A stretch of DNA of 58,828 nt from assembly GCA_018652955.1 (NCBI GenBank), contig JABIBA010000010.1, forward strand, positions 1 to 58,828, read 5' to 3'. Source of the DNA: Candidatus Peribacter sp. GTDB taxonomy: Bacteria; Patescibacteriota; Gracilibacteria; Peribacterales; Peribacteraceae. A model generated the notes under the pieces. The model was not told the DNA's origin, did not search any database, and saw only the letters and a list, made by a program, of their open reading frames with translations. A program made the position numbers and the translations under genes. Positions 1 to 15,389 of the stretch are shown one piece after another (position 1 is the first letter of the stretch; each line of letters opens with the position of its first letter).

Positions 1-1941
1 ACTACGAGTTGGGTACTCTCTGAGAAAAACAACCTTATAGAATCTAGTCGAGATGCAGTATTTCGGACTCGATTTTCTCGTGAAGGAAACTATGTACTAG
101 TAGCAGAGGTAAACAGCAACGGAAAGAAAACAGAGCGTACGTTCTTTGTGGAAGTGCGTCAGCGCAAAGTTGAAGATCGAGCAGTCCCAGGAAGTGCGGG
201 GGACATTGTTATCATAGATCCTCCAGAGTTTAGAGGTGCAATCCCCCTAAGCCTTGGCAGACAAGTCATTAGCATTACCCCTATTCGTGAAGACGTACAG
301 GTGCTTGCATTCGACTTTGATATCGACTTCGATAGTAATAATGATGGGAACCTTCAGAATGATGAAGATACTCGCAATACGCTTTTTCGATCGGAAGGAA
401 ATCCTCTACACGTCTGGTTTGTCGATGGATCCGAGCGGTCTATTCGCCTTGGTGCACTCTTTGCAGATAACACCACGAACTTTACAACCTACACTGTAGG
501 CAAAAGATCTGGAGAGCCTGTGCAGGAAGTACGCGATACTGTTGAGAATTCAAATATCAACAAAGGAGATATGAAGATAATGGTGACAAAGAGTGATAAC
601 GGAGAAGTGCATTTTTCTCTGCAACTTCCAGCTGGAGAAGAAGTGCCACTGCTCATGCACTGGAACTTTGGTGATGGCAGCACGAGTTTGCTAGACAATC
701 CTATTCACGACTTTGCGGATTCAGGTCAGTACAAAGTACAAGTTGAAGTGCGCGACTTAAAAACTGGTCGGGTTATTGAAACTGTCGAAGATACTATTTC
801 TGTAAATAGACTCCGCGATGAAAACCCCGACAACAAAGATCCAGAGCCAACACCAGACAAGAAGAAACCTAAAAAAGAAGGTGGATCATCTGTTCTTGGA
901 CTCATCATCAAACTTATTTTGAGCTTAGTAGGGTCTGCAATCGTTGGTGCACTTATCTTCTTCCTTGTTGGAAAAGCGAAGAAGAAAGGATTCTCTTTAG
1001 AGAAAACTATGGAACAAGCAGAAAAGACAATTGTCAAAACTCCAGAAGAGTCTGTGCAAGATGGCGCACCTCCACCTATGGAGATACAGGCAGAGGAAAT
1101 TCCTGAGCCTCCAGTAGCACCTCCACCTCCTGTAGAACCTGCTCCACCTCCTCCACCACCAGTGGAACCTGCTCCTCCTGCACCTGCACCTGCACCTGCT
1201 CCAGAACCAGTGCCAGAACCTCCAGTAGTTGAACCTACACCTGAGCCAGTTACACCACCTGCACCTGCTAGTACTGCCGAAGCTGCTGCTCCGGCATGGC
1301 TTCAGGAAGGACTCGGTCAAAACACTACTTCACCAGAACCTGTAGCACCTGCACCTCCAATGGAAGTACCTGCTGCTCCACCTCCTCAGCCTCCAGTCGC
1401 CGAGCCTGTGCCTGAGCCAGTTGCTCCGCCACCGCCTCCACCACCAGTGGAAGCACCACCTGCATCTGCACAAGTAGATACGCCTGCACCAAATGTAGAC
1501 CACACCGCATTAAACCCTTCAGCAGATCAGCTCGAGGCAGATACTGAAAATGCACCAGATTGGCTACAGGCAGGTATAGCGCAAGCAGAGACAGCCGGGC
1601 AAACTCCTGCAACTCCAGTAGAGCCTCCACAAGAAGTTGCTCCTACTGCTCCTGCAGAAAAAGCGAAGGACCCAGAAGCTCTTGAGCGAGAGAAAGACCG
1701 AAAGCGCCGAAAGCGCCAACGCTATCGTGAGAACTTAAAGACACGAAAAATAGAGGCTAACGGAGAGACTCTAAAACAACCTGAGAATACTGCTCCAACA
1801 GAGCCTGCTCCAGAAGATCTTAATGAGCCAGTTGCCTTTGTTACAGCGGAAGATATTGAGCCAATGGAGCCTCCTGCTCCACCTCCTCCACCTCCTCCAG
1901 TTGAGGAACCGCATACACCAGAGGGCGAAAAGCCTGCGTAA
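1..1941 (+). CDS. PKD-domain membrane protein with proline-rich tail (5' end outside window)
   Basis: The frame is open from base 1, so the gene begins upstream of the window; a GTG at 148 is only an internal codon. The visible protein has an EF-hand/dockerin-like calcium loop (DSNNDGNLQNDE, about bases 340-375), then a PKD domain with the hallmark WNFGDGS (about base 660) and a β-sandwich ending near base 800. A KKPKK-type basic stretch precedes one transmembrane helix (about bases 890-975). The remainder is a long Pro/Ala/Glu/Val-rich tail, interrupted by two related motifs (APAWLQEGLGQ and APDWLQAGIAQ) and a basic segment near 1670-1750. Topology would be outside-PKD, one helix, inside-tail. 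PKD domains usually bind proteins or sugars at the cell surface. Specific function is unknown. The gene is followed by tRNA-His. Confidence 0.8.
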   Translation, partial: TTSWVLSEKNNLIESSRDAVFRTRFSREGNYVLVAEVNSNGKKTERTFFVEVRQRKVEDRAVPGSAGDIVIIDPPEFRGAIPLSLGRQVISITPIREDVQVLAFDFDIDFDSNNDGNLQNDEDTRNTLFRSEGNPLHVWFVDGSERSIRLGALFADNTTNFTTYTVGKRSGEPVQEVRDTVENSNINKGDMKIMVTKSDNGEVHFSLQLPAGEEVPLLMHWNFGDGSTSLLDNPIHDFADSGQYKVQVEVRDLKTGRVIETVEDTISVNRLRDENPDNKDPEPTPDKKKPKKEGGSSVLGLIIKLILSLVGSAIVGALIFFLVGKAKKKGFSLEKTMEQAEKTIVKTPEESVQDGAPPPMEIQAEEIPEPPVAPPPPVEPAPPPPPPVEPAPPAPAPAPAPEPVPEPPVVEPTPEPVTPPAPASTAEAAAPAWLQEGLGQNTTSPEPVAPAPPMEVPAAPPPQPPVAEPVPEPVAPPPPPPPVEAPPASAQVDTPAPNVDHTALNPSADQLEADTENAPDWLQAGIAQAETAGQTPATPVEPPQEVAPTAPAEKAKDPEALEREKDRKRRKRQRYRENLKTRKIEANGETLKQPENTAPTEPAPEDLNEPVAFVTAEDIEPMEPPAPPPPPPPVEEPHTPEGEKPA

Positions 1942-2004
1942 AGCAGACTAAAAGCCTTCCCTAAGTCCATTTGCCCTAGTAGGATAGGCGGGCTGTTTAA
2001 ATAT

Positions 2005-2082
2005 GGCGAGAGTAGCTCAGTTGGTTAGAGCGTCCGGTTGTGGTCCGGAAGGTCGTGGGTTCAAACCCCATTTCTCGCCCCA
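2005..2082 (+). tRNA. tRNA-His (GTG)
   Basis: A full cloverleaf can be folded. The extra G at 2005 is G-1, paired with C73 at 2079, which is diagnostic of tRNA-His. The acceptor is 2006-2012/2072-2078, the D stem starts at 2015, and the anticodon stem TCCGG/CCGGA encloses loop TTGTGGT with anticodon GTG (2040-2042). The T arm is 2055-2071. CCA is encoded at 2080-2082. Its 3' half is duplicated downstream at 5526-5542 and 7683-7709. Confidence 0.96.
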
Positions 2083-2137
2083 GACTTTTCTTGGCTTACC
2101 TAAGCCATTTATTTGCTATACCACCATGTAGTGCATA

Positions 2138-2166
2138 TTGAAAAAAGCTCTGTTTTATGGTAAAAT
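2138..2166 (+). promoter_or_regulatory. Promoter for the 101-aa/964-aa gene pair
   Basis: TTGAAA at 2138-2143, a 17-base spacer, then TAAAAT at 2161-2166 preceded by TG (extended -10). The ATG lies 18 bases after the -10, giving a leader of roughly 10 bases with no Shine-Dalgarno. Confidence 0.7.
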
Positions 2167-2184
2167 AATAAGATTTGTATTTAT

Positions 2185-2490
2185 ATGGAAAACTCTGTTT
2201 CAAGCCTCATTACTGGCAGTATCAGCATAAGTAAGGAGGACAAAGATACACTGCTTTCCTCTCTGGATTCACTAAGTGCACAAGAGCTTGAGGTAATTAA
2301 GCAAACCCTTATCTTAGAACAAAAAGAAGGAGCTTCCATAGATCAAGAATACTCTGCAAGTCGCCATGGAGCATATGCTCGTTTTATAGATACTCTCCAT
2401 ACAATAAAGTCGTGGGCATTTTCTCATGCAGAAAAGGCAGAAAATAAAGAAGATATTTCTACACTTGAACACTTCTTTGACGATGAGTAA
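2185..2490 (+). CDS. Small acidic protein of unknown function, partner of the caspase-like protein
   Basis: Encodes 101 residues, mostly predicted α-helical, rich in Ser, Glu and Asp, ending in an acidic EHFFDDE. There is no signal peptide, membrane segment or motif that I recognise. The stop codon overlaps the ATG of the next gene (ATGAGTAA, 2483-2490), so the two are probably translationally coupled and may act together. The arrangement of a small helical protein followed by a very large one recurs at 49992-44996. The coupling suggests a chaperone, inhibitor or antitoxin-like partner, but nothing in the sequence proves it. Confidence 0.7.
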   Translation: MENSVSSLITGSISISKEDKDTLLSSLDSLSAQELEVIKQTLILEQKEGASIDQEYSASRHGAYARFIDTLHTIKSWAFSHAEKAENKEDISTLEHFFDDE

Positions 2491-5377
2491 TAAGCGCATA
2501 TTCAGATTTGGCATAAAAGAGAAGAGGCTTATATTTCAGTTTGAAGGACCCAAAAAACATCCTTTAGAGCAAGGAATTAGCGATTCTGTAGATAGTCTTC
2601 ATGAAAAGATTTCTACAACAGAGGAGGAGGAAGATATTATCGACCAAGATCGTATCGTAGATGATATCAATAAACTCAAGGTAGGTCTCCTCAACATTGA
2701 AAATAAAGATATAAAAAACAAAGCTCTACAGCAGCTAGATGATGCACTTGGAGTACTCCATACAGATTTTGATAAAGACGAATCTCAGAAGCAAGAAAGG
2801 CTTTCTCGTCTTAATGACCGTGTGTATTCATCTTTGCAGCCAATACTCTCCCGTCTCCTTGCAGAAAAAGAGGGTGTTACCAAGTTGGAAGGAAAAGGTG
2901 CAACAAGAACAATGGAATTTAACGGGGAAAAGGTAACACTAGAAATAGAAGGTCTTGGGACTGTTAAGAAAATCACGATGCCTGGCAAAAATATAGTCGT
3001 AGATGTCCCCAATGGGTATCCGACAAGAGTAATTGAAAGAATTCTTATCAATATACAAAGTATCCAGAATATTATTCCAAAACATTTACAGAAAGATGCA
3101 CAATCACTTATAGCTATAAATGGAGAAACATTTACTTTTACAGCAGAAGTAGATGGAGTAGAAGAATCGTACCGCGTTACTCCTTTCGAACTTCTTGAAA
3201 AAATACCTAAGGCAGACTATGCAAAGCAATATGAAGCAGAGCAGAAAGCAATGCAGGTAGAAATGGACATCATTAATAAGAACATGCCACGAGGACCAAA
3301 TGGTATGGATGTCTCTTCAAAAGAATTTAAAAAACTATATGCAGAAATACAGCAACTTACGTTTGATCTCGATGTTGGCACAGTCAAAAATGCACAAGAA
3401 TTACTTAAAAAGGGGGAAATTACGAAAGAGGATCTTGAAAAAATTACTCTTTATCAAGCGATGAATAAGGCAATCTACCGAGCAGAAAAGTCACAAAGAA
3501 AATTACGAGTACTTAAAGATAAAAAGTACGATCTTGAGCAGGGGTATACCAATGGGGAACGATTCAATACTGTAGATGATTCCCAAGAAACTCTTGAAGT
3601 ACGCTCTTTAAAGGGAGATGATGTCTACCACAACAAGAAAGGAGATATTGTCCGCACAAGAACATATATAAACAATAGTCTTACAACAGGAAGTCCTGAG
3701 AGATATTCAGATACCACAGAATATCATGAAGGTAAATCATCGACTACTACAAGCCGATTAAAAGATACTAATCAAATCACGAGCAAATCAGTGAGGGATA
3801 CTGATGGTTATTCAATGGAAAGCACATACTTTGAAAAGGATGGAAATATTACTTCAGTGAGCTATCCAAAATTTGGAGTGCAAATGGAATACCGGGATGG
3901 AAAGCCACATACGATACAGGTAAATAATAATGCATATGCCATCATCTACTGTGAAAAAGTACTACTACTGAAAGACGGAGAAAGTATACTCAAAAAAATT
4001 GCTGCAGGAGCACCGGGAGAGATTCTTGCAAGAATAGATGATATTTCTAAGCTCGGACAGCCACTTGCAAATGAGCTAGTTACAATTGCTCTAAATAATG
4101 CTGATGAAAAAGTACTTAAAAAAATTCTCCAAGACTTAGATAAATATGAACACATAAGAAAAACATTTTCTTCACCTCAGCAGCTAGAGCAGTTTACGAA
4201 AGAATGTGAACGCCGATTAGAAAAGTACAGAATTGCAAAAATACTCACACGCGCTTCGTATGGAGAAGAGCTTCCAAAGAAGATGCGAGAACTTTGGGAA
4301 GACCCTGCACTTAGTAATATACTTGAGGTTAAAGATGAATGGATTCCTAAAGATCACCCTCTTATGAAGCAATCCTCAAAAGGAGGGAACGAAGAGCTTG
4401 CATTGATTCAAATGAAAGCAATTATTGCAAGGAACCTCTACTTTACAAAGCTTCCTATTACTAAAGAAAATGTACAAAAGGAATTTGAACGTGTGGCCAA
4501 GGAGCGAGAGGCACTAAGGAGTACCCCTCTATTCCAAGGAAGAAATGTAGTGTTCGGAGCACATGAAGAAGTAATGCATGAAGAACGACGCATTAAAGAA
4601 TCTGGAGATAAGCATGCTTTTGGAAAAGAAGCTCTTGTTACCGCAATGCAAAAACAAATTGGCCCAGATGGCAGCTTTACTCTTATTAGGCCTGAGCTAG
4701 ATACAGTAGCTGAAGAAGATAAGATTGAGAATCTTACTCAGGCAAAGCAGAAGATTCTCGACCAGATTCGCACAACACCTCCTCCATTTACATTCGTTTT
4801 TGATGGTCATGGTGGACCTGATGCTATCTATCTATCTGATGGATCAATTGATGGATTTAGTCCTGGAGTCGGAGCTAGTGACTCTGAAGTTCAAGAATTC
4901 AAAGACACCATTAGTATATCAGCACAGGAAATAGGAGAAGCTTTTGCTGCCCGAGATGCAACATTTGGAAAAGAGATTGCTTCGTCTCCAGAGAAGAGAG
5001 ATGTTTTGATCTTGTCCTGTTGTTTTAATGCGAATTTTATTCGAAATATGTACAGGCATATGGGCTCTGCACCAAAACCTGTAGCAATTGGACAATCCGA
5101 ATACAACCAATACTCTTTGTACTTTAAACCTAATAAATACGGAAGTCCGTTTTTAGCAAATACTGTAGGAGCAGCTAAAGAAGATGGACCCGCTACCCTT
5201 GGAACGGTGTTCGATAAAGAGTTTACCAATATGGAAGAAATTACGGATGAAAAAGGCGAAGTCTTTGAGGGTAATACAAACCCAAGTGTATATGTTCCAG
5301 ACGAAAATAATGTCATCATGCAAATTACAAAGACTGATGATGATAGTGTAGATCCCTCAAGGGAATCTATTGCGTAG
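2483..5377 (+). CDS. Large protein with C-terminal caspase-like (clan CD) His/Cys signature
   Basis: The ATG at 2483 overlaps the preceding stop and was preferred over an in-frame codon at 2426 inside the upstream gene; this gives 964 residues. The N-terminal two thirds are coiled-coil-prone and Lys/Glu-rich, with a β-rich Tyr/Gly/Asp segment at about residues 380-490 that loosely recalls YD/RHS repeats. Near the C-terminus, a hydrophobic strand leads into FDGHGG (His776) and about 70 residues later a second strand leads into LSCCF (Cys846/Cys847). A strand-HisGly followed by a strand-Cys is the catalytic layout of clan CD peptidases (caspases, gingipains, CHAT). No signal peptide is seen, so it is probably cytoplasmic. 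Proteolytic activity is inferred from this signature only; the family is not one I recognise. Confidence 0.75.
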   Translation: MSNKRIFRFGIKEKRLIFQFEGPKKHPLEQGISDSVDSLHEKISTTEEEEDIIDQDRIVDDINKLKVGLLNIENKDIKNKALQQLDDALGVLHTDFDKDESQKQERLSRLNDRVYSSLQPILSRLLAEKEGVTKLEGKGATRTMEFNGEKVTLEIEGLGTVKKITMPGKNIVVDVPNGYPTRVIERILINIQSIQNIIPKHLQKDAQSLIAINGETFTFTAEVDGVEESYRVTPFELLEKIPKADYAKQYEAEQKAMQVEMDIINKNMPRGPNGMDVSSKEFKKLYAEIQQLTFDLDVGTVKNAQELLKKGEITKEDLEKITLYQAMNKAIYRAEKSQRKLRVLKDKKYDLEQGYTNGERFNTVDDSQETLEVRSLKGDDVYHNKKGDIVRTRTYINNSLTTGSPERYSDTTEYHEGKSSTTTSRLKDTNQITSKSVRDTDGYSMESTYFEKDGNITSVSYPKFGVQMEYRDGKPHTIQVNNNAYAIIYCEKVLLLKDGESILKKIAAGAPGEILARIDDISKLGQPLANELVTIALNNADEKVLKKILQDLDKYEHIRKTFSSPQQLEQFTKECERRLEKYRIAKILTRASYGEELPKKMRELWEDPALSNILEVKDEWIPKDHPLMKQSSKGGNEELALIQMKAIIARNLYFTKLPITKENVQKEFERVAKEREALRSTPLFQGRNVVFGAHEEVMHEERRIKESGDKHAFGKEALVTAMQKQIGPDGSFTLIRPELDTVAEEDKIENLTQAKQKILDQIRTTPPPFTFVFDGHGGPDAIYLSDGSIDGFSPGVGASDSEVQEFKDTISISAQEIGEAFAARDATFGKEIASSPEKRDVLILSCCFNANFIRNMYRHMGSAPKPVAIGQSEYNQYSLYFKPNKYGSPFLANTVGAAKEDGPATLGTVFDKEFTNMEEITDEKGEVFEGNTNPSVYVPDENNVIMQITKTDDDSVDPSRESIA

Positions 5378-5403
5378 GATACCTATTTAGCCCTATCCAG
5401 CCT

Positions 5404-5542
5404 CTTATACTGGTTATTCCCCAAATAACCTACATTCGTTTCGAAGGAGAAGATAAAGTAACCTAAGGAATCGCTCGCCCCAGATTTATTATATACAGTT
5501 GGTTAGAGCATTCGCCCATCTGACTCCCATTTCTCGCCCCAG
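5404..5542 (+). repeat. tRNA-His-derived repeat, copy A
   Basis: Bases 5404-5509 are nearly identical to 7549-7654 (about 5 differences in 106). The block contains CTCGCCCCAG, the tRNA-His 3' end, then a D-arm-like GTTGGTTAGAGC. It is followed by a shortened middle and a second copy of the tRNA 3' end, CCCATTTCTCGCCCCAG (5526-5542). It cannot fold as a working tRNA. Confidence 0.85.
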
Positions 5543-5556
5543 ATTTTACTAACTCG

Positions 5557-5838
5557 TTAGAGAATTTTTTGCACCATCAACGCTGGAGAATACTTAAAAA
5601 GCACAATAACAATAGTCCACAACAGTTGAACAATAATCATGGAAGTACAATCCGACCACTTACTCTTATGCTGCTTTATCATTTTATAATTCAAAAATAG
5701 ATATATCCCTAGCGGAAATACATATATGCCATACGCCAATACGTACACAAGAACCCACCAAAGTGGAGGGAGAAAGAAAAGCATGATGATCAATGCCTGT
5801 TTCCATGAAAACATTTTGTACTCTTTCTTTGTGTCCAT
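5557..5838 (-). CDS. Small membrane protein, unknown
   Basis: Encodes 93 residues with three hydrophobic stretches (about residues 13-30, 33-50 and 65-85) separated by short basic loops such as YKMIKQHKSK. This looks like a two- or three-pass membrane protein. A TATAAA box on the minus strand (5850-5855) ends 11 bases before the ATG, consistent with a near-leaderless transcript. The gene sits between two tRNA-derived repeats and so forms a one-gene unit. I do not recognise a family. The hydrophobic pattern and promoter support it as real, but it is short. Confidence 0.55.
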   Translation of the reverse strand: MDTKKEYKMFSWKQALIIMLFFLPPLWWVLVYVLAYGIYVFPLGIYLFLNYKMIKQHKSKWSDCTSMIIVQLLWTIVIVLFKYSPALMVQKIL

Positions 5839-5858
5839 ATGTAAGGCATTTTATAGTA

Positions 5859-5900
5859 AAAAGTAGTCTAAGGAATCGCACTCCCCAGTTTTTTAATAAA
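5859..5900 (+). repeat. Degenerate partial copy of the tRNA-derived repeat
   Basis: The segment CTAAGGAATCGC followed by CTCCCCAGTTTTTTAATAAA resembles the inner part of copies A and B (AAAGTAACCTAAGGAATCGC then TCGCCCCAGATTTATTATA). It lies between the 93-aa gene and the 506-aa gene. Confidence 0.55.
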
Positions 5901-5902
5901 TC

Positions 5903-7423
5903 CTATTTCTTCGAATCAAGAATATCGTGTAAAAATGCAGTCTTATCTTTGTAGTGATTAAGGCTGGGAATATCATCTCTCTTACCTTTGATCTTTTCAC
6001 ATAACTCTAGAGCCTCATCAGACAACTGCCTCTCTATAGGGGTACATTCGATAAAAAATAAGGCGAGATTCGTTAGTAATTCCTGTTCTGTCTCACTCGT
6101 ATACCGTGGATTATACCATGGTGAATTATTGTGGCGATTCTCTATATAACGCAATTGCTGTTTACAATAGTCTATCTCATCCTGATTAGGTGATTTCTTA
6201 AGTTCTCTAGCAGACAGAATAAAAAGTAACGGGAATTTTGAAAGGATTTTCCTTTTCTCAGAGCTATCCTCTGGGAGGTTTTTTACCATTTCATGTGCAG
6301 CCAATCGCATTTGAAGCCAATTGGTATCCTGTTTCCAGTCGTTGAGAGCATCCCAAATATATGTGCGCCCACTTTTCTCTGCACCAGTAAATGACTCATT
6401 TGTTACATCAAACGGAAATACTTGGATACGACCATTTTTATCTTGTGACATCACTTGAACAAGCGCATGTGGACCACCTTCTGTTCGATAATCTCCGTAA
6501 CTGTATTGTAGGATTGCTTCTAAATCTGGCTGTACTGCTACACGCTTTTTCTCTTCGTCAGTTAAAAGTCTCAATCTCCATAGAGCGGATTTTTCTTTGC
6601 CTTCCTTTGTATTGCGATCTATCTTTGAATCGGGCCTCATAACTACTAATTCACCAGTGGTAAACAGTTTATACACTTCTAGATCTTCTGGCTGCAGTCT
6701 ACCGTAGGGAAATCCACTAGCTGCAATCTTGTTACTTAGTATGCCAATGCGAGTGGTCTGTAAAAGACTTGTATCAGAAGCTTGTAGTAATTTAATAGCT
6801 TCGAATATTACAATCATCATTTGTGCCTTATTTCGGCACACCGTATCTTTATCGTCCTTATTTTTTAAAATAGTTTCTGGGCTATACACATCATTGCTAT
6901 GCCGTCCTTTTAATCGTTCCCGCAAAATATCATCATCCGATAAGCTTCCACCACTTCTTTTTAGCTGTTGCGATATGTCCATATTTTTATTCCCCTTATT
7001 GGTTAACGCCAATTGACTAGAGTCATACTCTGTCCGCTCGGAAAGAATAGTATGAGCGAGTGCTACCGCTTCACGTGGAGAAAGATTCGCTATTTTTTTT
7101 CCTACTCCTTTTCCGTAATTTTTATCAATAAATATGCTGATGCGTTTCATTGCCCTAGGGTCACTTAATGTATTTGTCTGTTTTGAAAAGTTATTATACT
7201 TAGGTAAAGAAAGGGTCTTTGGGATAGATGCTGCAAACTCTTGCCCAGGATTTACATCGGGATTCCACTGCTTTTTAGGGAATACCAGTGGATTACTACC
7301 AACAATAGGCATTGATACAAGTGATCGTTTACGCCAGCCAGGTTTATAATCTACATGCTTTTTATCTTCCTGTATTGGGCCTACAAATGCAGATTTTTGT
7401 TCTTGTGGTTTTTCTTTGGCCAT
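5903..7423 (-). CDS. Protein with transglutaminase-like Cys/His/Asp signature
   Basis: The ATG at 7423 was chosen because a TATAAT box ends six bases upstream; an alternative start at 7471 would lie upstream of that promoter. Encodes 506 residues, no signal peptide. Three motifs in the order of a transglutaminase-like (papain-fold) core are visible: VCRNKA with Cys196, PHALVQV with His319 and FDVTN with Asp339. The Cys-to-His distance is longer than in typical family members, implying an insertion. The N-terminal 100 residues are Lys/Pro-rich and the last 130 are helical. Such folds act as proteases, transglutaminases or peptide N-glycanases. It is bracketed by tRNA-derived repeats. Assignment rests on motif order and remains a hypothesis. 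Confidence 0.7.
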   Translation of the reverse strand: MAKEKPQEQKSAFVGPIQEDKKHVDYKPGWRKRSLVSMPIVGSNPLVFPKKQWNPDVNPGQEFAASIPKTLSLPKYNNFSKQTNTLSDPRAMKRISIFIDKNYGKGVGKKIANLSPREAVALAHTILSERTEYDSSQLALTNKGNKNMDISQQLKRSGGSLSDDDILRERLKGRHSNDVYSPETILKNKDDKDTVCRNKAQMMIVIFEAIKLLQASDTSLLQTTRIGILSNKIAASGFPYGRLQPEDLEVYKLFTTGELVVMRPDSKIDRNTKEGKEKSALWRLRLLTDEEKKRVAVQPDLEAILQYSYGDYRTEGGPHALVQVMSQDKNGRIQVFPFDVTNESFTGAEKSGRTYIWDALNDWKQDTNWLQMRLAAHEMVKNLPEDSSEKRKILSKFPLLFILSARELKKSPNQDEIDYCKQQLRYIENRHNNSPWYNPRYTSETEQELLTNLALFFIECTPIERQLSDEALELCEKIKGKRDDIPSLNHYKDKTAFLHDILDSKK

Positions 7424-7435
7424 CAGATTATTATA
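7424..7435 (-). promoter_or_regulatory. -10 box of a predicted leaderless promoter
   Basis: TATAAT on the minus strand at 7430-7435, preceded by TG, with six bases between it and the ATG at 7423. No Shine-Dalgarno is present and no clear -35 was found. Confidence 0.6.
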
Positions 7436-7548
7436 CAGGATTTTTATGATTTTTGGAATTATGCCCTTCAATCAAGGTTATAGATGCCTATATATCCTTA
7501 GTAGTGGGGGAATTTTTACCTAAATTACATAATAGGCTTATTTATTCG

Positions 7549-7709
7549 CTTATACTGGTTATTCCCTAAATAACCTACATTCGTTTCGAAGCTAAACATA
7601 AAGTAACCTAAGGAATCGCTCGCCCCAGATTTATTATATACAGTTGGTTAGAGCGTTCGCGGTTAGCGGCCCGTGAAGGTCTGGGTTCAAACCCCATTTC
7701 TCGCCCCAG
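7549..7709 (+). repeat. tRNA-His-derived repeat, copy B
   Basis: Bases 7549-7654 repeat 5404-5509. The copy then carries a non-canonical anticodon region and 27 bases (7683-7709) identical to the T arm and 3' end of tRNA-His (2057-2083). The 5' acceptor strand is missing, so this is a tRNA relic or attachment-site-like repeat. It closes the accessory island against the copper operon. Confidence 0.88.
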
Positions 7710-7726
7710 TTTTACCAATAAATAAC

Positions 7727-8350
7727 CTAATGGCCATTATCATCTTCATGATGATCATCATAATCTGGGTCGTGGTTTTGAGCTTCTTCAGTTCCGTGTG
7801 GATCTCCAGTTTCTACTACTCGCGGAGGCAAGTGCTCCTCCTTGTTAGTATGAGCGTGACCTACTGACCTGTTTGGCATAAGTAAAGCTGCTCCTTGAGC
7901 ACCTCCGTAGAAACCAGCTCCCCAAAATAATACAACACCTAGTGTCCCAACAAGAGTGGCATGCAATTTTCTTCCATTTCCATGATGTTCGTGGGTATGC
8001 AGCCAACGTAGTGATGTCCCAACTGCAATAAGTTCTAAGGTGACAACAATTAATGCTAGTGAACCCATAGCTTCTGATTCGCCAACAAAGGGAACAGGTA
8101 GGTATAGCATAATAAGGCACAGTATTGCCATTCCACCATTCATAGCAAGTCCTAGTCGATACGTACGCATTTTGGGCTGACGAAAAAAATGTACACCTAA
8201 TACAAGTTGCATTATTCCACCTACCATAAAGAACATTCCTTCAAGAGGAGGAAATGGTGTCCAGTGCTGCTGTGCAACAATGGAAACATGTAGTAGTCCA
8301 GCTGCTATGCTGCAAAGGCCAGTTATGCGTGCGGCGAGATAGTTTTTCAT
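7727..8350 (-). CDS. Multi-pass membrane protein with His-rich tail, end of copper operon
   Basis: Encodes 207 residues. About five transmembrane segments fill residues 5-165. Histidine clusters follow the fourth segment (HTHEHHGNG) and crowd the C-terminus (HAHTNKEEH, then DYDDHHEDDNGH), a pattern typical of metal-binding loops. The start overlaps the stop of the cusA-like gene by four bases (ATGA type), so it is translated from the same mRNA. No family recognised. The context and the His-rich tail suggest metal buffering or an accessory role in copper export; this is inference. Confidence 0.8.
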   Translation of the reverse strand: MKNYLAARITGLCSIAAGLLHVSIVAQQHWTPFPPLEGMFFMVGGIMQLVLGVHFFRQPKMRTYRLGLAMNGGMAILCLIMLYLPVPFVGESEAMGSLALIVVTLELIAVGTSLRWLHTHEHHGNGRKLHATLVGTLGVVLFWGAGFYGGAQGAALLMPNRSVGHAHTNKEEHLPPRVVETGDPHGTEEAQNHDPDYDDHHEDDNGH

Positions 8351-11300
8351 AGTTGTCGTTCACGAAGCATAGCAAATAACACAGGTAATACAATTAATGT
8401 AAGTAGCACCGATGTCGTCAATCCTGACATAACAACAAGGGCTAGAGGTCTGCTTACTTCTGCACCTGTGCCCGTTGAAGCAATCATAGGAATAAGGCCA
8501 ATGACAGACGTAAATGCTGTCATCAGAATAGGGCGAAGCCTGAGGAGAGACCCTGATACTACTGCTTCATGAATACCTGCCTTTGTAATGGCTGCATTTG
8601 CAAAGCGTTCTTTAAATGCATTTTCCAGATACACCACAATCACAGTACCTGTTTCTACAGCATTACCAAAGAGTGCGATAAATCCAACCCAGACCGCTAC
8701 AGAGAAGTTGAAATCAGCTATAAACAACGCAATCACACCTCCGACAAGACTAAGAGGAATGGTCAGCATTACAATAGATACTAAGCTGAGATCTTTATAG
8801 GTGAGGTACAGAAGCAAGAAAATAACGAAGAGCACTAGCGGAATTACTATTGAAAGTCGCTGCTTAGCTCGTAACTGGTTTTCGTATTGCCCTGCCCATT
8901 CGTACGAATATCCTTGAGGCAAGGTAAGCTCACTTTCAAGTCTTGCATCCGCTTTTTTTACAAATGAAGCCATGTCAATACCCCGAACATTTGTTTGTAC
9001 TACAGATCTTAGTATTCCATTTTCACTGTGAATCACTGCTGGGCCATCCGTCATTTTGATATCTGCAACGCTACTGAGGAGAACTCGTTCACCATTCATA
9101 CCTTGTAGTGGTAGAGATTTTATATCTTCTACGTCTTGGCGAAACGCCTGTTGCAAGCGCACCTGAACACCATATTGCTCTCGTCCTTCTATAGTTTTAG
9201 TAATCATGGCGCCACCAACACCTGCAGCAATTGTTTTCAAGGCATCCATTTTCATGATGCTGTGCTGCGCAAGAAGGTCGTCTTTTAGGTCTATATCCAA
9301 ATACCGTAAGCCCGTTGTACGAATGGCTACAGTATCAGCAGCTCCAAGAACCCCTGAAAGAATAGCTTCTGCTTCAATGGCAAGTGCCTCAAGTTTTACG
9401 GGGTCATCACCGAAGAATTTCACACCAAGTGTTGTGCGTATACCAGTAGAGAGCATATCGATACGACCGATAATTGGCTGTGTAAAGCTATTCCATAAAT
9501 TATCAAACTGTATATTCGTATTCATTTCACGAATAATTTTTTCTTTAGTCATGCCTCTGCGCCATTCACTTTTTGGCTTGAGGGTGATAAATGTTTCAAA
9601 CATCGCAAGAGGTGCTGGGTCTGTCGCTGTATCTGCACGGCCTGCTTTACCGACAACCATTTGTACTTCGGGTATTTCAGAAATAATCTTATTGGTAGCA
9701 ATCAGTAATTCCTGAGCACGTTCTTCTGATACATCTGGAAGAGAGATAGGCATGTACCACAGCGTTCCTTCATCTAGTGGTGGCATAAACTCAGATCCGA
9801 TCTGGGTCATTGCACCAAAGCCAATGACGGCAAGTGCACCTGCAATACCAAGCGTTAGCCTTCTTCGTGCAAGAGCTAAGAGCAAGATCGGCTTATATTT
9901 ATTCTGTAACCACTGAACAATAGGAATTTCGTCGTCATTACGGAGTTTTCCCTTCAGAAAGAATACAGACAATGTTGGCACTAAGAAAAGTGCTGCGATA
10001 AGAGCTCCAAGCATTGCGAACAGGTTTGTGTAGGCAAGTGGCGTAAAGAGTTTTCCTTCCTGTCCCGTCAGAGTAAAAATTGGAGCGAAAGAAAGAATTA
10101 TAATAAAGATGGCGAACACAATAGGCTTTCCTACTTCAAGCGTTGCCTCTTTAATGCGCGCTACTCGATCTGCAAGAGTTTTTGGCGGGTTCTCTAAGAG
10201 CTTGCGATAGGCATTTTCACTAATAACAATTGCCGCATCAACCATTGTTCCAATAGCAATGGCAATACCTCCCAAGCTCATAATATTACTAGGGATACCA
10301 AACAGGCGCATGAAGATAAATGTCATCAGTACTCCCATGATAAGTGCTATGGCAGTAATTGCCGTTGAGCCCATGTGCCAGAGGAAAAGCCCAAGTATGA
10401 CTGTGGTAATAATCAGTTCCTGTGTCAGCACGCTTCGCAGTGTGGCAATCGCGGACAAGATCAAATCTGTACGATCATAAAAAGGTTTAATCGTTACTCC
10501 ATCTGGGAGAGACTCTTCAAGCGTTTTTATACGCTCTTTAACAGCATCGATAACTTTAAGAGGGTTTTCTCCGTATCGCATAACAACAACACCACCTACT
10601 TTTTCTTTCTCTTCGTTGGCAAGAATTGCTCTGCGGAACATTCCAGACTCACGTACTTCACCAATATCTGTGACAGTAAGTGCCATACCATCTGACCGCT
10701 TTCCAACAACGGTACTTCCAATCTCCTCTATTTTTTCAAAGAATCCAATTCCTTGAATGGCAACTTCTCGCCCTCCAGTATCGATGACTTTACCTGAGAC
10801 ATTATTATTTGCCATTCGTATAGCATCCATAACTTGGGTAATTCGGAGATTAAACTGTTGCAGTTTCTGTGGGTTAAGAATTACTTCATAGGTTTTCTTG
10901 TATCCACCAACAGAAGCAACTTCGGCAACACCTGGTACACTTTGAAGACTGTATCGAACGACGAAATCTTGCAAAGAGCGAAGCTCTGTAAGTGTGTGCG
11001 TATCGCTTTCTAGTGTGTACATAAAGATGTGCCCTACACCTGTCGCATCAGGACCGAGAATAGGCGTTACACCCAGAGGGAGCTGAGCTTGCACCAAGCT
11101 TAATCTCTCAGAGACGCGGTCACGAGCAAAGTAAATATCAATGTTGTCATGAAAAATAACGGTTACCATAGAAACACCTAACATAGAAGATGCACGAATA
11201 TCTCGTACACCTGCTAGTCCTTGCATACTTACAGTAAGTGGATAGGTTATTTGATCTTCGATATTGCGAGGGGTTTGTCCGGTCCACTCTGTCATAATAA

Positions 11301-11442
11301 TCACCTGATTCTCTGAGAGATCTGGGATAGCATCTACAGGTGTATGCATCATGGTTACGACACCGCCAATTGCAATTACGGCAAAAGAAAGCAGAGTAAT
11401 GAATCTATTTTCAAGCGCCTTGGTAATGAGGTAGTTAATCAT
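8347..11442 (-). CDS. cusA: CusA-like heavy-metal RND efflux pump
   Basis: Encodes 1031 residues, the usual size for a heavy-metal RND proton antiporter. The N-terminal helix, the VDAIPDLSENQV segment and the porter domains match CusA/CzcA. In TM4, IGTMVDAAIV carries Asp402, matching the proton-relay Asp of E. coli CusA. The methionine-containing motifs DPAPLAMFET and RIDMLSTGI match the CusA metal site for Cu(I)/Ag(I). The TM10 glutamate is present (NAVETG), but the lysine that CusA has in its last helices is replaced (RPILMT, as in CzcA-type pumps). It overlaps cusB by eight bases. Role: export of monovalent copper or silver, with the CusB-like adaptor. No outer-membrane channel gene is in the operon. 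Confidence 0.93.
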   Translation of the reverse strand: MINYLITKALENRFITLLSFAVIAIGGVVTMMHTPVDAIPDLSENQVIIMTEWTGQTPRNIEDQITYPLTVSMQGLAGVRDIRASSMLGVSMVTVIFHDNIDIYFARDRVSERLSLVQAQLPLGVTPILGPDATGVGHIFMYTLESDTHTLTELRSLQDFVVRYSLQSVPGVAEVASVGGYKKTYEVILNPQKLQQFNLRITQVMDAIRMANNNVSGKVIDTGGREVAIQGIGFFEKIEEIGSTVVGKRSDGMALTVTDIGEVRESGMFRRAILANEEKEKVGGVVVMRYGENPLKVIDAVKERIKTLEESLPDGVTIKPFYDRTDLILSAIATLRSVLTQELIITTVILGLFLWHMGSTAITAIALIMGVLMTFIFMRLFGIPSNIMSLGGIAIAIGTMVDAAIVISENAYRKLLENPPKTLADRVARIKEATLEVGKPIVFAIFIIILSFAPIFTLTGQEGKLFTPLAYTNLFAMLGALIAALFLVPTLSVFFLKGKLRNDDEIPIVQWLQNKYKPILLLALARRRLTLGIAGALAVIGFGAMTQIGSEFMPPLDEGTLWYMPISLPDVSEERAQELLIATNKIISEIPEVQMVVGKAGRADTATDPAPLAMFETFITLKPKSEWRRGMTKEKIIREMNTNIQFDNLWNSFTQPIIGRIDMLSTGIRTTLGVKFFGDDPVKLEALAIEAEAILSGVLGAADTVAIRTTGLRYLDIDLKDDLLAQHSIMKMDALKTIAAGVGGAMITKTIEGREQYGVQVRLQQAFRQDVEDIKSLPLQGMNGERVLLSSVADIKMTDGPAVIHSENGILRSVVQTNVRGIDMASFVKKADARLESELTLPQGYSYEWAGQYENQLRAKQRLSIVIPLVLFVIFLLLYLTYKDLSLVSIVMLTIPLSLVGGVIALFIADFNFSVAVWVGFIALFGNAVETGTVIVVYLENAFKERFANAAITKAGIHEAVVSGSLLRLRPILMTAFTSVIGLIPMIASTGTGAEVSRPLALVVMSGLTTSVLLTLIVLPVLFAMLRERQL

Positions 11443-13246
11443 TGAAGAGGTCGGGAGGATCGAGAATAACTTGGCTTTCTTTGTCTAAGGCTCCAGTAAT
11501 CTCTGCAAATTCACCGTCTTCAGCAAAAACTGAAACAGTAAGTTGCATGGGCTCATTGGTTTCTAGGTCAAGCAGCCAGATAAAGTTACGGTCATCCTCG
11601 CGCTTTACTGCGGAAGATGGCACGCGGTAGATCGGCTTCTTATTATCAGTCAGACGAATGCGCACACTTGATTGATGTGGAAGACTAAGATCGTCAGGAA
11701 TTTTTGCTTGGACAGTGACCGTATGAGATTTCATATCCACTTGTGGACTTTTGCGTGTTATCTCTGCGCTATACTCTTGCACTTCGTCTTCCTGTAAGTA
11801 GAAGGTAATCTGGTCACCGATATCTACTGCAGAAAGAAGATATTCAGGAAGTCCAAATTGTACTTCTGCTTTTGCATTTTTTGCGAGACTCGTAAGTACG
11901 TCAGTCATTTCAAAGGCTGGCATAGAAGGAGAAACTATCTGACCAACATTCAAAAATCGCTTAGAAACAGTTCCAGAGAATGGAGAGAGAATCTTGCGAT
12001 GACCACTCTCAGCATATTCTGACTGCAACATTGTATTCGCGATATCCAACATACTCTTTTGTCTTTCGACTATTTGTTGTTGGTTCGCTTCTGTAAGACC
12101 TAGGGTATTGTTTGCAGATCGGATGTGCTCTTCGAGCATCCGAACCTTGTTACTTTTTAGGCCTTCGTATTGCCCGCTGCGAAATGCAGCGAAAATTTCA
12201 GGCTCAGAGGATGTGAGCGTTTGAAATGCAAAGCGTGCATCCTCCAGTTTCTCTTTTGATGCATAAATAGAATTTTGTGCTGCAGTAATTTTGCCAATCC
12301 GATCTGTAAGCTGGACGTGAGTAAGACGGTCAAAGCCGTTAGCAGTGACTTCAGATGGAGTGTATTGCAAGAGCATATTTGTAACACTGAGAGCATCTAA
12401 TGCCTGTGCCAGTATTCGATCTATCACAACTGGCTTCTGAATATCTGAAGCATTGGCATACTCCCTTTCTGAATCTGTAAGTGTATTGAATGCTTCTATG
12501 ATGGAATAGCGAGATGTATTACTACTGTCTTGTATTCCAAGGTTTCTCAACAGATCATCACTGCGCATATGCATGCCACTGCGACTATTGCTACCGAGAA
12601 CAATCCACTCAATAAGCTGTCTGGTGTTTTGCACTACAGTAAATGCCTGTTCACGTTTTTGTGTGATATTCCCTTCTGATTCAGCAAATTTTTGAAGAAG
12701 AGAATCTTGCTCTCTCTGCGCAATCAACAACTCAGTTTCTTTTTCATTAATTTTCTGACGAGTGCTGATAATAGTTTCCTCTGCAACTTGGGTTGCTGTA
12801 GAAAGGTTGGACTGTGCTTCAGATTTTCGAGCTTGTTTCTCGGCAATCTTTGCAGCGCTTTGGCCTTCAACTCCTTTTGGAAGAAGTAATGCAACAACCT
12901 GACCTTTTTCTACCCTGTCGCCGATATCGACATATATGTCTTCAACGATACCGCTGCGACGAGGGTAGATGTTGGCTGTTTCATGAGAGAGGACTGTCCC
13001 TAGTAGAATTACAGAGGAGGAATCGCTGACAAATTCAGGTGCCACAGTAGTAAGAGTGTTGAGATCTTCTTCTGTTTCTAGCTTACTGGTCTGATTAGGT
13101 GATAGCGAGTCGCTACCACGCATTGTGGCGTAAGAAGTTGAAGATATGATTACGATAAGGAGAACACCCACTGACCGAACAGCAAGCTTGCGCCTCTTGA
13201 GGAGGGCTAACTTTGCCTGTGATAGTAATTGGATGACGTTGTTCAT
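11435..13246 (-). CDS. cusB: CusB-like membrane fusion (adaptor) protein
   Basis: Encodes 603 residues. One N-terminal membrane anchor (about residues 22-42) is followed by half of a lipoyl-like domain (GIVEDIYVDIGDRVEKGQVV). A very long helical hairpin spans roughly residues 130-400, and the other lipoyl half is LSPFSGTVSKRFLNVGQIV. A β-barrel and membrane-proximal domain complete the protein. This is the order seen in RND adaptors. The hairpin is long for the family. The gene overlaps cusA by eight bases, which supports a stoichiometric complex. In a cell without an outer membrane the hairpin would have no TolC-type partner; it may instead cross a thick wall or S-layer. Confidence 0.88.
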   Translation of the reverse strand: MNNVIQLLSQAKLALLKRRKLAVRSVGVLLIVIISSTSYATMRGSDSLSPNQTSKLETEEDLNTLTTVAPEFVSDSSSVILLGTVLSHETANIYPRRSGIVEDIYVDIGDRVEKGQVVALLLPKGVEGQSAAKIAEKQARKSEAQSNLSTATQVAEETIISTRQKINEKETELLIAQREQDSLLQKFAESEGNITQKREQAFTVVQNTRQLIEWIVLGSNSRSGMHMRSDDLLRNLGIQDSSNTSRYSIIEAFNTLTDSEREYANASDIQKPVVIDRILAQALDALSVTNMLLQYTPSEVTANGFDRLTHVQLTDRIGKITAAQNSIYASKEKLEDARFAFQTLTSSEPEIFAAFRSGQYEGLKSNKVRMLEEHIRSANNTLGLTEANQQQIVERQKSMLDIANTMLQSEYAESGHRKILSPFSGTVSKRFLNVGQIVSPSMPAFEMTDVLTSLAKNAKAEVQFGLPEYLLSAVDIGDQITFYLQEDEVQEYSAEITRKSPQVDMKSHTVTVQAKIPDDLSLPHQSSVRIRLTDNKKPIYRVPSSAVKREDDRNFIWLLDLETNEPMQLTVSVFAEDGEFAEITGALDKESQVILDPPDLFND

Positions 13247-13260
13247 AGTAGTAAGAGGAA

Positions 13261-13482
13261 TTAGTTGTGGTCCATCATCTTCATGTCGTCTGAATCAAGC
13301 ATTTTCATGTGCTCTTCAAGGCTCATATTCATACGGGCAGCAGCACGCTTTTCTGATCGGAACTCTTCTACGGTAATACCGTATTTGGCTGCTTGTTGCT
13401 CTTCAGTCATTGGGACATCAGATGCACATCCTGTAACAAGAAGGATAGAAAGTACGAGAAGTGGAGATAAAAACTTTTTCAT
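13261..13482 (-). CDS. Small Met-rich lipoprotein
   Basis: The ATG at 13482 begins MKKFLSPLLVL and leads to a lipobox LVTGC; an ATG at 13521 would put extra residues before the signal and is less likely. Mature length is about 55 residues. The C-terminus is rich in metal ligands: MNMSLEEHMKML and DDMKMMDHN. It lies in the copper operon between cusB and a second metal-binding protein. The likely role is binding Cu(I) outside the membrane and passing it to the pump, as CusF does, though it is not a CusF homologue by sequence. Confidence 0.75.
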   Translation of the reverse strand: MKKFLSPLLVLSILLVTGCASDVPMTEEQQAAKYGITVEEFRSEKRAAARMNMSLEEHMKMLDSDDMKMMDHN

Positions 13483-13558
13483 AAGAGAAATGGGGAAAAA
13501 TAAATAAATAGTATGCATCAACGCATATGCGATGAAGCATGAAATAAAAGGCGGAGAT

Positions 13559-13924
13559 TTACACTCTCAATATGACCGTCCCTACAAGTGATACCGATAA
13601 GGGAGGAGGCCCTGTGTCTGCGAGAAATGGTCTTGGACTATTAATGGTGTAGCTATCAAAAACAACTGCCACAGGTGACATAACAGTGTTTAGCAAGTGA
13701 GATGTTTGTTGAACTTCAGTAGTGATAGTAGAAAACGCAACGTCTTCAGATTCCATATCACATGTTTCACACTCTTGCTCAGCTTCCATATCGTGATCCA
13801 TATCTTGTGCTGCCATGTGCATCTCTCCCATATCCATAGGTTGCATACCGATATTCATAGGGCAGATGCTTGCACAAATCGTGGAAAGTGTAATGCCTGT
13901 AAGAGTGAGAAGTGAGATGTTCAT
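13559..13924 (-). CDS. Met/His/Cys-rich metal-binding protein
   Basis: Encodes 121 residues. A hydrophobic N-terminus (about residues 3-20, with Cys17 and Cys21) could be a signal or anchor. Residues 22-60 are packed with Met, His and Cys: MDMGEMHMAAQDMDHDME followed by CETC. Methionine clusters of this type bind Cu(I) or Ag(I). The C-terminal half has no motif I recognise and ends in a hydrophobic stretch. It is encoded 13 bases after the permease in the copper operon. Suggested role: extracytoplasmic copper chaperone or buffer. Confidence 0.75.
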   Translation of the reverse strand: MNISLLTLTGITLSTICASICPMNIGMQPMDMGEMHMAAQDMDHDMEAEQECETCDMESEDVAFSTITTEVQQTSHLLNTVMSPVAVVFDSYTINSPRPFLADTGPPPLSVSLVGTVILRV

Positions 13925-13937
13925 CGGTTGATACTAT

Positions 13938-15002
13938 TTATAGAGACATTTGATTAAGAATCAAGGCAATTAGTATAACTTGAGGAAGAGTAACTAGTGG
14001 AAGAAAAAATGCAATTTTCCATCTTCCGGTTGTTTCTTTAAGGGTAAGCATCTCTGTGTAGTCTGTAGATACTCCTGCCATCAAGAAGCCGAACATGTTT
14101 CCCGGTGCTTTAGCGCGCAGAAGGAAATCAGCAGCAACAGGCATAGATCCTTCGCTGCAAACTTCTAAGATTGTTGCAAAGAGCAATGTGGCACCAAGTC
14201 CTGCAACTGTAGATCCAAACACTTGTGCAAAAAGCTCTACAGGAACTGCTGCACGAATAATTGATGCAAGTACGATACCAAAGAAGATCCAACGAAGGAT
14301 CATTGTAGATTCAGTAAGTCCTGTGTAGAGCATTTTTCCAAATGCATTTAGAGACCAATGAATAGATTGTATGTACTCTTTTAGCTCTTTCCGGAATCCA
14401 TTGTGGTTTTCCGCTCCAGTACTGTTTGGATTTGGAGGCAGCACTCCTTTAGCGACTAACTTGTCAAAAATCACACCTGAGATAATTGCCATGACGAGTG
14501 ATAACACAAGAATTGTTAGTGTCCACTTTATTCCAACAAGTGCAAAAAGAATGAGTGTCAACGATAAGGAGTTCCAGGGGCTTGCGATAAGAAAGGCCAT
14601 CATCTGACCAAGGCTTGCTCCACGTTTATACAGCTGCATTCCTACAAGTAAAATTCCATGAGAACACAAATCCAGAAGTACTCCTGCAGCTGTTGCTCGT
14701 AACAGACCATTCATCGTTCCACCTTTTCCAAGTATCGACATCACAAGCTCACGAGGAACACCGGCTAATATTCCTACAAAGATAATACCAAGAGCAACTC
14801 CCCACCACATCTTATGTAGTAGCTCTACAACGCTTGTTGCAAACTCGCTTCCATAAGGAATAAGTGGTAGAAAATCAGGTAAAAAGAAACTTGCAGCATA
14901 TGTCGCTACCAGAATTATTCCGGTAGTCCACAAGAGCCAATCCGTTTTCTTTGAGGCATGACAACATGATTCTTGTTGTTGCTGATGATTCTGATGATCC
15001 AT
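13938..15002 (-). CDS. Permease of the YraQ/ArsP-like (DUF318) family
   Basis: Encodes 354 residues with about eight to ten membrane helices. Two homologous halves are suggested: the first carries LLDLCSHGILLVGMQLYKRG and AFLIASPWNS, the second ILEVCSEGSMPVAADFLLR and MAGVSTDYTE. These match the Pro/Cys-rich signatures of the permease family PF03773, some members of which export copper, zinc or methylarsenite. The N-terminal cytoplasmic tail contains QESCCH, a possible metal-capture site. It follows csoR by six bases, so it is presumably copper-regulated. Confidence 0.82.
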   Translation of the reverse strand: MDHQNHQQQQESCCHASKKTDWLLWTTGIILVATYAASFFLPDFLPLIPYGSEFATSVVELLHKMWWGVALGIIFVGILAGVPRELVMSILGKGGTMNGLLRATAAGVLLDLCSHGILLVGMQLYKRGASLGQMMAFLIASPWNSLSLTLILFALVGIKWTLTILVLSLVMAIISGVIFDKLVAKGVLPPNPNSTGAENHNGFRKELKEYIQSIHWSLNAFGKMLYTGLTESTMILRWIFFGIVLASIIRAAVPVELFAQVFGSTVAGLGATLLFATILEVCSEGSMPVAADFLLRAKAPGNMFGFLMAGVSTDYTEMLTLKETTGRWKIAFFLPLVTLPQVILIALILNQMSL

Positions 15003-15008
15003 AAGAGA

Positions 15009-15278
15009 TTAACGTTTAGATAATCCAATTACCGTAAGAAGTTCTTTAATAAATGCATCCTTGTCCTTTGGAGATGATAGATTTTTTTCTGCACACGTGT
15101 GCATGTGGCTTTCAAGAATGTGCTCTTGAACACCATCCAAATGCCCCTTCATAGCAAGAACGTTACGAAGAATTTCAGGACAATGTTCATTCTCATCCAT
15201 TTGAGTTGCAACCTTCTTACTCAGACCATCCAACCTCTTTAATGCAGCCAGCGCTTTTGCTTTCTGATCAGGTAACAT
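15009..15278 (-). CDS. csoR: CsoR-type copper-sensing repressor
   Basis: Encodes 89 residues, all helical, the usual size of the CsoR/RcnR (DUF156) family. The Cu(I) ligands are present with exact CsoR spacing: Cys33, His58 and Cys62 (25 and 4 apart). RcnR-type nickel sensors carry an extra N-terminal His, which is absent here. It is the first gene of the copper operon and lies directly behind a promoter overlapped by a G-rich operator. It probably represses the whole operon until Cu(I) binds and releases it. Confidence 0.9.
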   Translation of the reverse strand: MLPDQKAKALAALKRLDGLSKKVATQMDENEHCPEILRNVLAMKGHLDGVQEHILESHMHTCAEKNLSSPKDKDAFIKELLTVIGLSKR

Positions 15279-15289
15279 AGGTAGTAGGG

Positions 15290-15333
15290 GTACTGGGTAG
15301 GGGTACTATATCCTTCTAAAGAGTTAGTGTCAA
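15290..15333 (-). promoter_or_regulatory. Copper operon promoter with CsoR-like operator
   Basis: On the minus strand, TTGACA (15328-15333), 17 bases, TATAGT (15305-15310). Immediately downstream, over the expected +1, plus-strand bases 15290-15306 read GTACTGGGTAGGGGTAC: a G-tract flanked by GTAC arms, the usual look of CsoR-family operators. The csoR ATG is about 26 bases after the -10. Confidence 0.8.
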
Positions 15334-15389
15334 ATAGCCCTCCAGTTTTACCCTTCCCGAAAGGCGTTAAGTAGGGTAGACTCCTTGGC

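Follow-up and report, generated by a model that had tools for sequence, protein, structure and literature searches.

A probable decayed accretion of serine-integrase elements at the tRNA-His gene of a Candidatus Peribacter genome

Results

The host is a tiny, parasite-like CPR bacterium of the Peribacter group with a reduced genome, and the locus described here lies within the window, i.e., the whole stretch of 58,828 nucleotides that was analyzed. A tRNA-His gene (GTG) occupies positions 2006 to 2083 of the plus strand (ARAGORN, 2006-2082; Rfam tRNA, 9.4e-13), with an attB-type target sequence, CCCATTTCTCGCCCCAG, at its 3' end, and it was the sole Rfam tRNA match within 1800-8400. It is followed on the same strand by a flank with a terminator-like hairpin (flank 2084-2130; hairpin 2092-2107), which is homologous to the flank after an intact element in a sister genome (p <= 0.0005, shuffles). 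The four open reading frames (ORFs) reported downstream by the first-pass annotation were found at their positions: ORFs of 101 aa (2185-2490) and 964 aa (964/983 aa; 2483-5377) on the plus strand, followed by ORFs of 93 aa (5557-5838) and 506 aa (5903-7423) on the minus strand. Since the flank to the right of tRNA-His looks native, being common to the window genome and the sister genome, the unit of the 101- and 964-aa ORFs has no clear-cut left boundary. On the far side, the conserved neighbor hisS (15390-16721, plus strand) was recognized by its N-terminal motif and is 94% identical to hisS of G003, a genome of the same genus.

None of the four ORFs, including those of 101, 93, and 506 aa that belong to no known family, gave a significant Pfam or PHROG match. 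For the C-terminal approximately 350 aa of the 964-aa protein (window 4280-5377), relatives (L060-L069, L073) were identified in 13 further genomes of the class, and the better matches keep the motifs FxFDGHG (His) and SCxxxxF (Cys). Going by the motifs only, this part, which has no Pfam family, might resemble a caspase-like (clan CD) His-Cys peptidase; single-sequence structure prediction was unusable (pLDDT 41). One relative, in G099, is located about 0.7 kb downstream of tmRNA. The claim of a separate promoter-like box for every unit found no support: 9 promoter-like sites were counted as compared to 17.8 expected by chance, i.e., there was no enrichment.

Between the last boundary and hisS lies an accessory region (7710-15380, strand not assigned) encoding an AcrB-family (CusA-like) RND pump, an adaptor-like protein and an ArsP_1 permease. 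Judged by its gene content, 7710-15300 is a metal-efflux island. The region 7710-15380 is absent at the G003 locus, and a search for an element end at its right side, near 15330, gave no significant match.

The boundaries between the units contain repeats of the tRNA-His 3' end, as had been noted previously. Within the 58.8 kb window, five occurrences of the 10-mer CTCGCCCCAG were counted, always at boundaries within 2074-7709, as compared to an expectation of 0.03; this count was reached in 0/100 shuffles, and a chance origin was rejected. The stretches 5404-5515 and 7549-7660 share 95% identity over 112 nt (90% over 128 nt for the longer version of this pair), 7682-7709 repeats tRNA-His 2056-2083 without a mismatch (28 nt), 5526-5542 reproduces 17 nt of tRNA-His exactly, and 5860-5898 corresponds, with 82% identity, to the upstream portion of the repeat. 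A genome-wide repeat unrelated to tRNA-His, which would have spoken against a role of the tRNA gene, was rejected, as the boundary repeat was found at this locus only in the 1.2 Mb genome.

The long boundaries, here named A and C, consist of two distinct pieces. The first is an approximately 96-nt sequence (A, 5388-5483; C, 7533-7628; both plus strand) terminating in CTAAGGAATCGCTCGCCCCAG at 5483 and 7628 and finishing in CGCTCGCCCCAG; at A the terminus reads AGTAACCTAAGGAATCGCTCGCCCCAG. In the second piece, the 12-nt spacer ATTTATTATATA precedes a degenerate copy of tRNA-His on the plus strand (5484-5542 and 7629-7709). Both copies are devoid of the 5' acceptor half; the former has kept the D-arm and the 3' end and has its middle deleted, and in the latter the anticodon arm is replaced, the final 28 nt being those of tRNA-His. 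Neither was called as a tRNA by ARAGORN or Rfam, and with RNA parameters they folded no better than shuffled sequences (z of -0.7 and -1.0). Boundary B (about 5860-5888, plus strand) is shorter and diverged and consists of the first piece only; its terminal core, CTAAGGAATCGCACTCCCCAG, is also the core of the element in the sister genome.

Comparison with relatives revealed both an empty and an occupied site. In G003, a PKD-domain gene is followed by tRNA-His and, about 186 nt after the tRNA, by hisS; in the window the same neighbors, tRNA-His and hisS, are 13.3 kb apart. G003 is thus an empty site of the kind that the first-pass annotation had proposed to look for in close relatives. In nine family genomes with the same orientation of tRNA-His and hisS, the window genome and G003 among them, the gap between both genes amounts to 0.2, 0.2, 0.8, 1.4, 2.0, 2.6, 3.2, 10, and 13 kb and holds differing genes; therefore, the interval is a variable insertion site. 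tRNA-His is inverted with respect to hisS in the relatives G002, G007, G008, G012, G022, G042, and G068. The 964-aa and 506-aa proteins were not found in the other four genus genomes searched (one of them 78% complete), so that these genomes do not carry the same genes in the same order without repeats. Two further genomes display rearrangements of the tRNA gene: G009 (L040, 3580-3760) has a tandem duplication of about 110 bp in which the 5' portion of tRNA-His and the stretch upstream of it are repeated, and in G015 (L049, 3054-3155) tRNA-His is followed after about 12 nt by a near-complete second copy that has an altered anticodon loop and lies between the arms of the inverted repeat CACCTATAT/ATATAGGTG.

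The occupied site was identified in the sister genome G002 (Candidatus Peribacter sp. UBA6535), which belongs to the same genus. There, the tRNA-His 3' end closes contig C41 and opens contig C30 (11,421 bp), the far end of which reads AGTAACCTAAGGAATCGCACTCCCCAG|TATCTTTTTTGGCTTGCA. C30 encodes a 570-aa large serine recombinase adjoining the tRNA end (PF00239, Resolvase, and PF07508, Recombinase; phrog_95, 1.8e-104), hereafter the C30 integrase, the reading frame of which extends through the attachment site and continues antisense to the tRNA. Behind it, C30 encodes additional genes, a TerS-like small terminase subunit (7.7e-17) and a PriCT_1/AAA primase-like protein. Among the selection of proteins scanned against Pfam and PHROG, neither structural (capsid) proteins nor conjugation or mobilization genes were detected. 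C30 is a whole integrative element of 11.4 kb at tRNA-His. By its predicted integrase, primase and TerS and the lack of structural genes in the selection scanned, it resembles a phage satellite. The sequence to the right of C30 (TATCTTTTTTGGCTTGCATAAGCC) resembles the tRNA-His flank of the window (p <= 0.0005), which suggests that C30 sits precisely between the tRNA end and the native flank. Both contig pairs, C41/C30 and C30/C2, have overlaps of exactly 24 nt, and their break points are those at which an assembly graph would split and rejoin for an occupied and an empty allele; these contig ends suggest that both alleles coexist in the G002 sample. A decayed element end beside the G002 tRNA copy was not significant.

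In blastn comparisons of C30 with window positions 1-16000, E values below 0.1 were obtained only for the C30 right end, at A (73%, 89 nt, E 1.4e-8), B (93%, 28 nt, E 2.4e-5), and C (76%, 82 nt, E 3.2e-10, the best match), and for the tRNA core. The end at C additionally matched G004:C18:1-74 (86%, 74 nt), where the copy sits directly upstream of hisS, and a 22-nt core is identical at A, C, and in G004. With at most one mismatch, the end motif was found among 74 family genomes in the window genome (three places, one with one mismatch), in G002 (one) and in G004 (one); allowing three mismatches added two other family genomes, and the reversed control gave 0. Because C30 matches the window at its right end and the tRNA core alone, the window repeats are, as judged from these alignments, attR-type right ends of C30-type elements with unrelated gene contents. 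This is in line with the earlier suggestion to search for other genes bounded by the same repeat, which exist in G002 with contents unrelated to those of the window. Left ends like that of C30 were not found in the window. Inverted attP arms can be seen by eye in C30 but did not reach significance even there (p 0.14) and were left aside.

Orthologs of the C30 integrase (59-64% identity) abut tRNA-His in three other family genera, represented by G042, G068, and G089, and another abuts tRNA-Val in G081, where the element has the same gene set as C30 (TerS 65%, primase 47%). These five closest integrases form one clade (support 100/100), and more distant members abut tRNA-Val, tRNA-Ile, tRNA-Met, tRNA-Arg, tRNA-Leu, and tmRNA. 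A serine integrase together with a TerS-like gene was also observed at tRNA-Val, tRNA-Ile, and tRNA-Met (L163 in G081; L165 in G066; G064:C3:75540-81775), and these loci are candidate phage satellites in CPR bacteria. The first-pass annotation had seen no integrase in view, and this holds: no cognate integrase is present in 2084-7709, and no member of the clade in the whole window genome. The two serine recombinases that the genome does encode fall far outside the clade (24-26% identity over partial length), and their action in trans was rejected. The serine recombinase genes of the genome include one at C7 (L123, 7683-9398) for an unrelated large serine recombinase with a frame across the tRNA-Tyr gene (7784-7868) and one at C9 (L124, 6004-13362), where ORFs of 112 and 1,893 aa come after a 412-aa serine recombinase, a pair of a small and a large gene that recalls the 101- and 964-aa arrangement of the window. 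No tyrosine recombinase was found at the locus, a single PF00589 protein being encoded elsewhere in the genome. Neither the integrase and the 964-aa protein nor the end motif had matches in IMG/VR; the window stretch had no match in a phage collection, and the integrase showed less than 30% identity in the top records of the latter.

Discussion

Here, the repeats at the tRNA-His locus of the window were traced to the right end of an intact element, and we consider it probable that the locus represents a decayed, tandem, CIME-like accretion of serine-integrase elements at the tRNA-His 3' end. The right ends in the window match those of the intact element, the integrase family is located at tRNA 3' ends, and the G003 site is empty. 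Of the two readings offered by the first-pass annotation, serial insertion at the tRNA site gains support from the empty site in G003, the same end with other genes in G002 and the integrases abutting tRNA-His. By contrast, an active cassette array using a tRNA-derived attachment sequence finds no support: the repeat is a serine-integrase element's right end, the cognate integrase is missing, left ends are not recognizable, and the boundaries are degraded.

Going by the integrase family, we propose that a large serine integrase recombined the attP of an element with the tRNA 3' end, with the crossover within the shared CCCCAG, which would regenerate the tRNA on the left and leave the element end (attR) as the mark on the right. 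Insertion may then have been repeated at the tRNA 3' end or at its copies, the cargo presumably arriving with the elements, before the integrase and the left ends were lost and, probably, homologous exchange took place between the tRNA copies. The remnants of such a sequence of events would be the three right ends (5483, 5888, and 7628), the two broken tRNA-His copies and the stranded cargo genes. The pile-up is regarded as decayed because the window contains neither a cognate integrase nor recognizable left ends. The same two absences also speak against the accretion, as do the unclear left limit of the unit of the 101- and 964-aa ORFs and the spacer and tRNA copy common to A and C, the latter pointing to duplication or homologous exchange and not only to independent insertions.

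This common module could be given more weight. An account that we hold possible, though clearly less probable than the accretion, allows for one or two insertions only, after which the module of end, spacer and broken tRNA-His would have been copied by unequal homologous recombination, making the array mainly a recombination product between tRNA-His copies. It would explain why A and C have the element end, the spacer and the tRNA D-arm in common (128 nt, 90%), and broken tRNA-His copies indeed occur near tRNA-His in other genera without the element end (G015, G020). However, the ends at B and in G004 have differing flanks, which requires more than one junction independent of the module, and the cargo between the modules is not duplicated.

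That the units are still working is, in our opinion, unlikely. Small non-autonomous cassettes, each an end with its cargo, would in this case be moved in trans by the serine integrase of a co-resident element, and the conserved attachment end would allow unrelated cargo to be picked up, stacked at tRNA-His and mobilized by satellite-like elements that are transient in Peribacter populations, a scenario to which we assign an equally small chance. The conserved ends (the core identical at A, C, and in G004) next to unrelated cargo, the lack of an integrase in the units and the presence of an intact element in the genus are compatible with such cassettes, but the window genome lacks the cognate integrase and a second locus with such units, the units share no common left end, unit 2 measures only about 350 bp, and the boundaries are partly deleted. 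A regulatory role of the tRNA-like copies, as a tRNA mimic or hisS leader, would agree with hisS being the conserved neighbor and with the copy about 130 nt upstream of hisS in G015. Yet the window copies are missing the 5' acceptor half, show no better folding than shuffled sequences and are 7.7 kb away from hisS, and no copy precedes hisS in G003; with no stable fold and an inconsistent position, this highly improbable reading was rejected.

The probable accretion at tRNA-His leads to a Peribacteraceae family of satellite-like elements whose serine integrases have tRNA 3' ends as their targets, a kind of site usually linked to tyrosine integrases, and it shows how gene islands can accumulate at a single tRNA gene of a reduced genome. 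Additionally, the related integrases offer integrase/attB pairs for tRNA-His, tRNA-Val, tRNA-Ile, tRNA-Met, tRNA-Arg, tRNA-Leu, and tmRNA.

Phage-inducible chromosomal islands carry a tyrosine integrase, and tycheposons are associated with tRNA genes. C30 is similar to phage satellites such as the former in its size of about 11 kb, its integrase at the end, primase and TerS and the absence of capsid genes among the proteins seen, but differs in its serine integrase, its CPR host and the lack of a known helper phage; the window units, in turn, have no integrase, primase or TerS. The literature search turned up no work on phage satellites of Patescibacteria, which is weak evidence, as its coverage of subscription journals was thin. 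Like integrons and tycheposons, the locus strings together small cargo units between repeated attachment-like boundaries, and like the latter it is tied to a tRNA gene. The integrase family (serine), the degraded boundaries and the absence of attC-like folding and of a tyrosine recombinase at the locus set it apart; integrons have a tyrosine integrase and attC sites folding as single strands.

Tandem accretion is already known, and it is the host group and the pairing of integrase and target that are little described in the literature searched. In the CIMEs and tandem accretions of ICEs and IMEs, integration genes are lost, and attachment-site ends are kept and stacked at the end of one target gene (PMC5704250). 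Likewise, the window units lack integration and transfer genes, have kept attR-type ends and are stacked at tRNA-His. In contrast to those systems, the parent here is a satellite-like serine-integrase element without recognized conjugation genes in a CPR host, and the attR-type ends are clear, whereas the left attachment ends are not recognizable. The closest parallel drawn for the integrase itself concerns the streptococcal integrases targeting rumA, which combine PF00239 and PF07508, have a frame that extends past the attachment site and into the target, and act by reciprocal exchange (PMC4701971). The C30 integrase resembles this group in its domains, in its frame crossing the attachment site and in the short direct repeats, but its target is the 3' end of a tRNA gene, which is left intact, instead of a protein gene.
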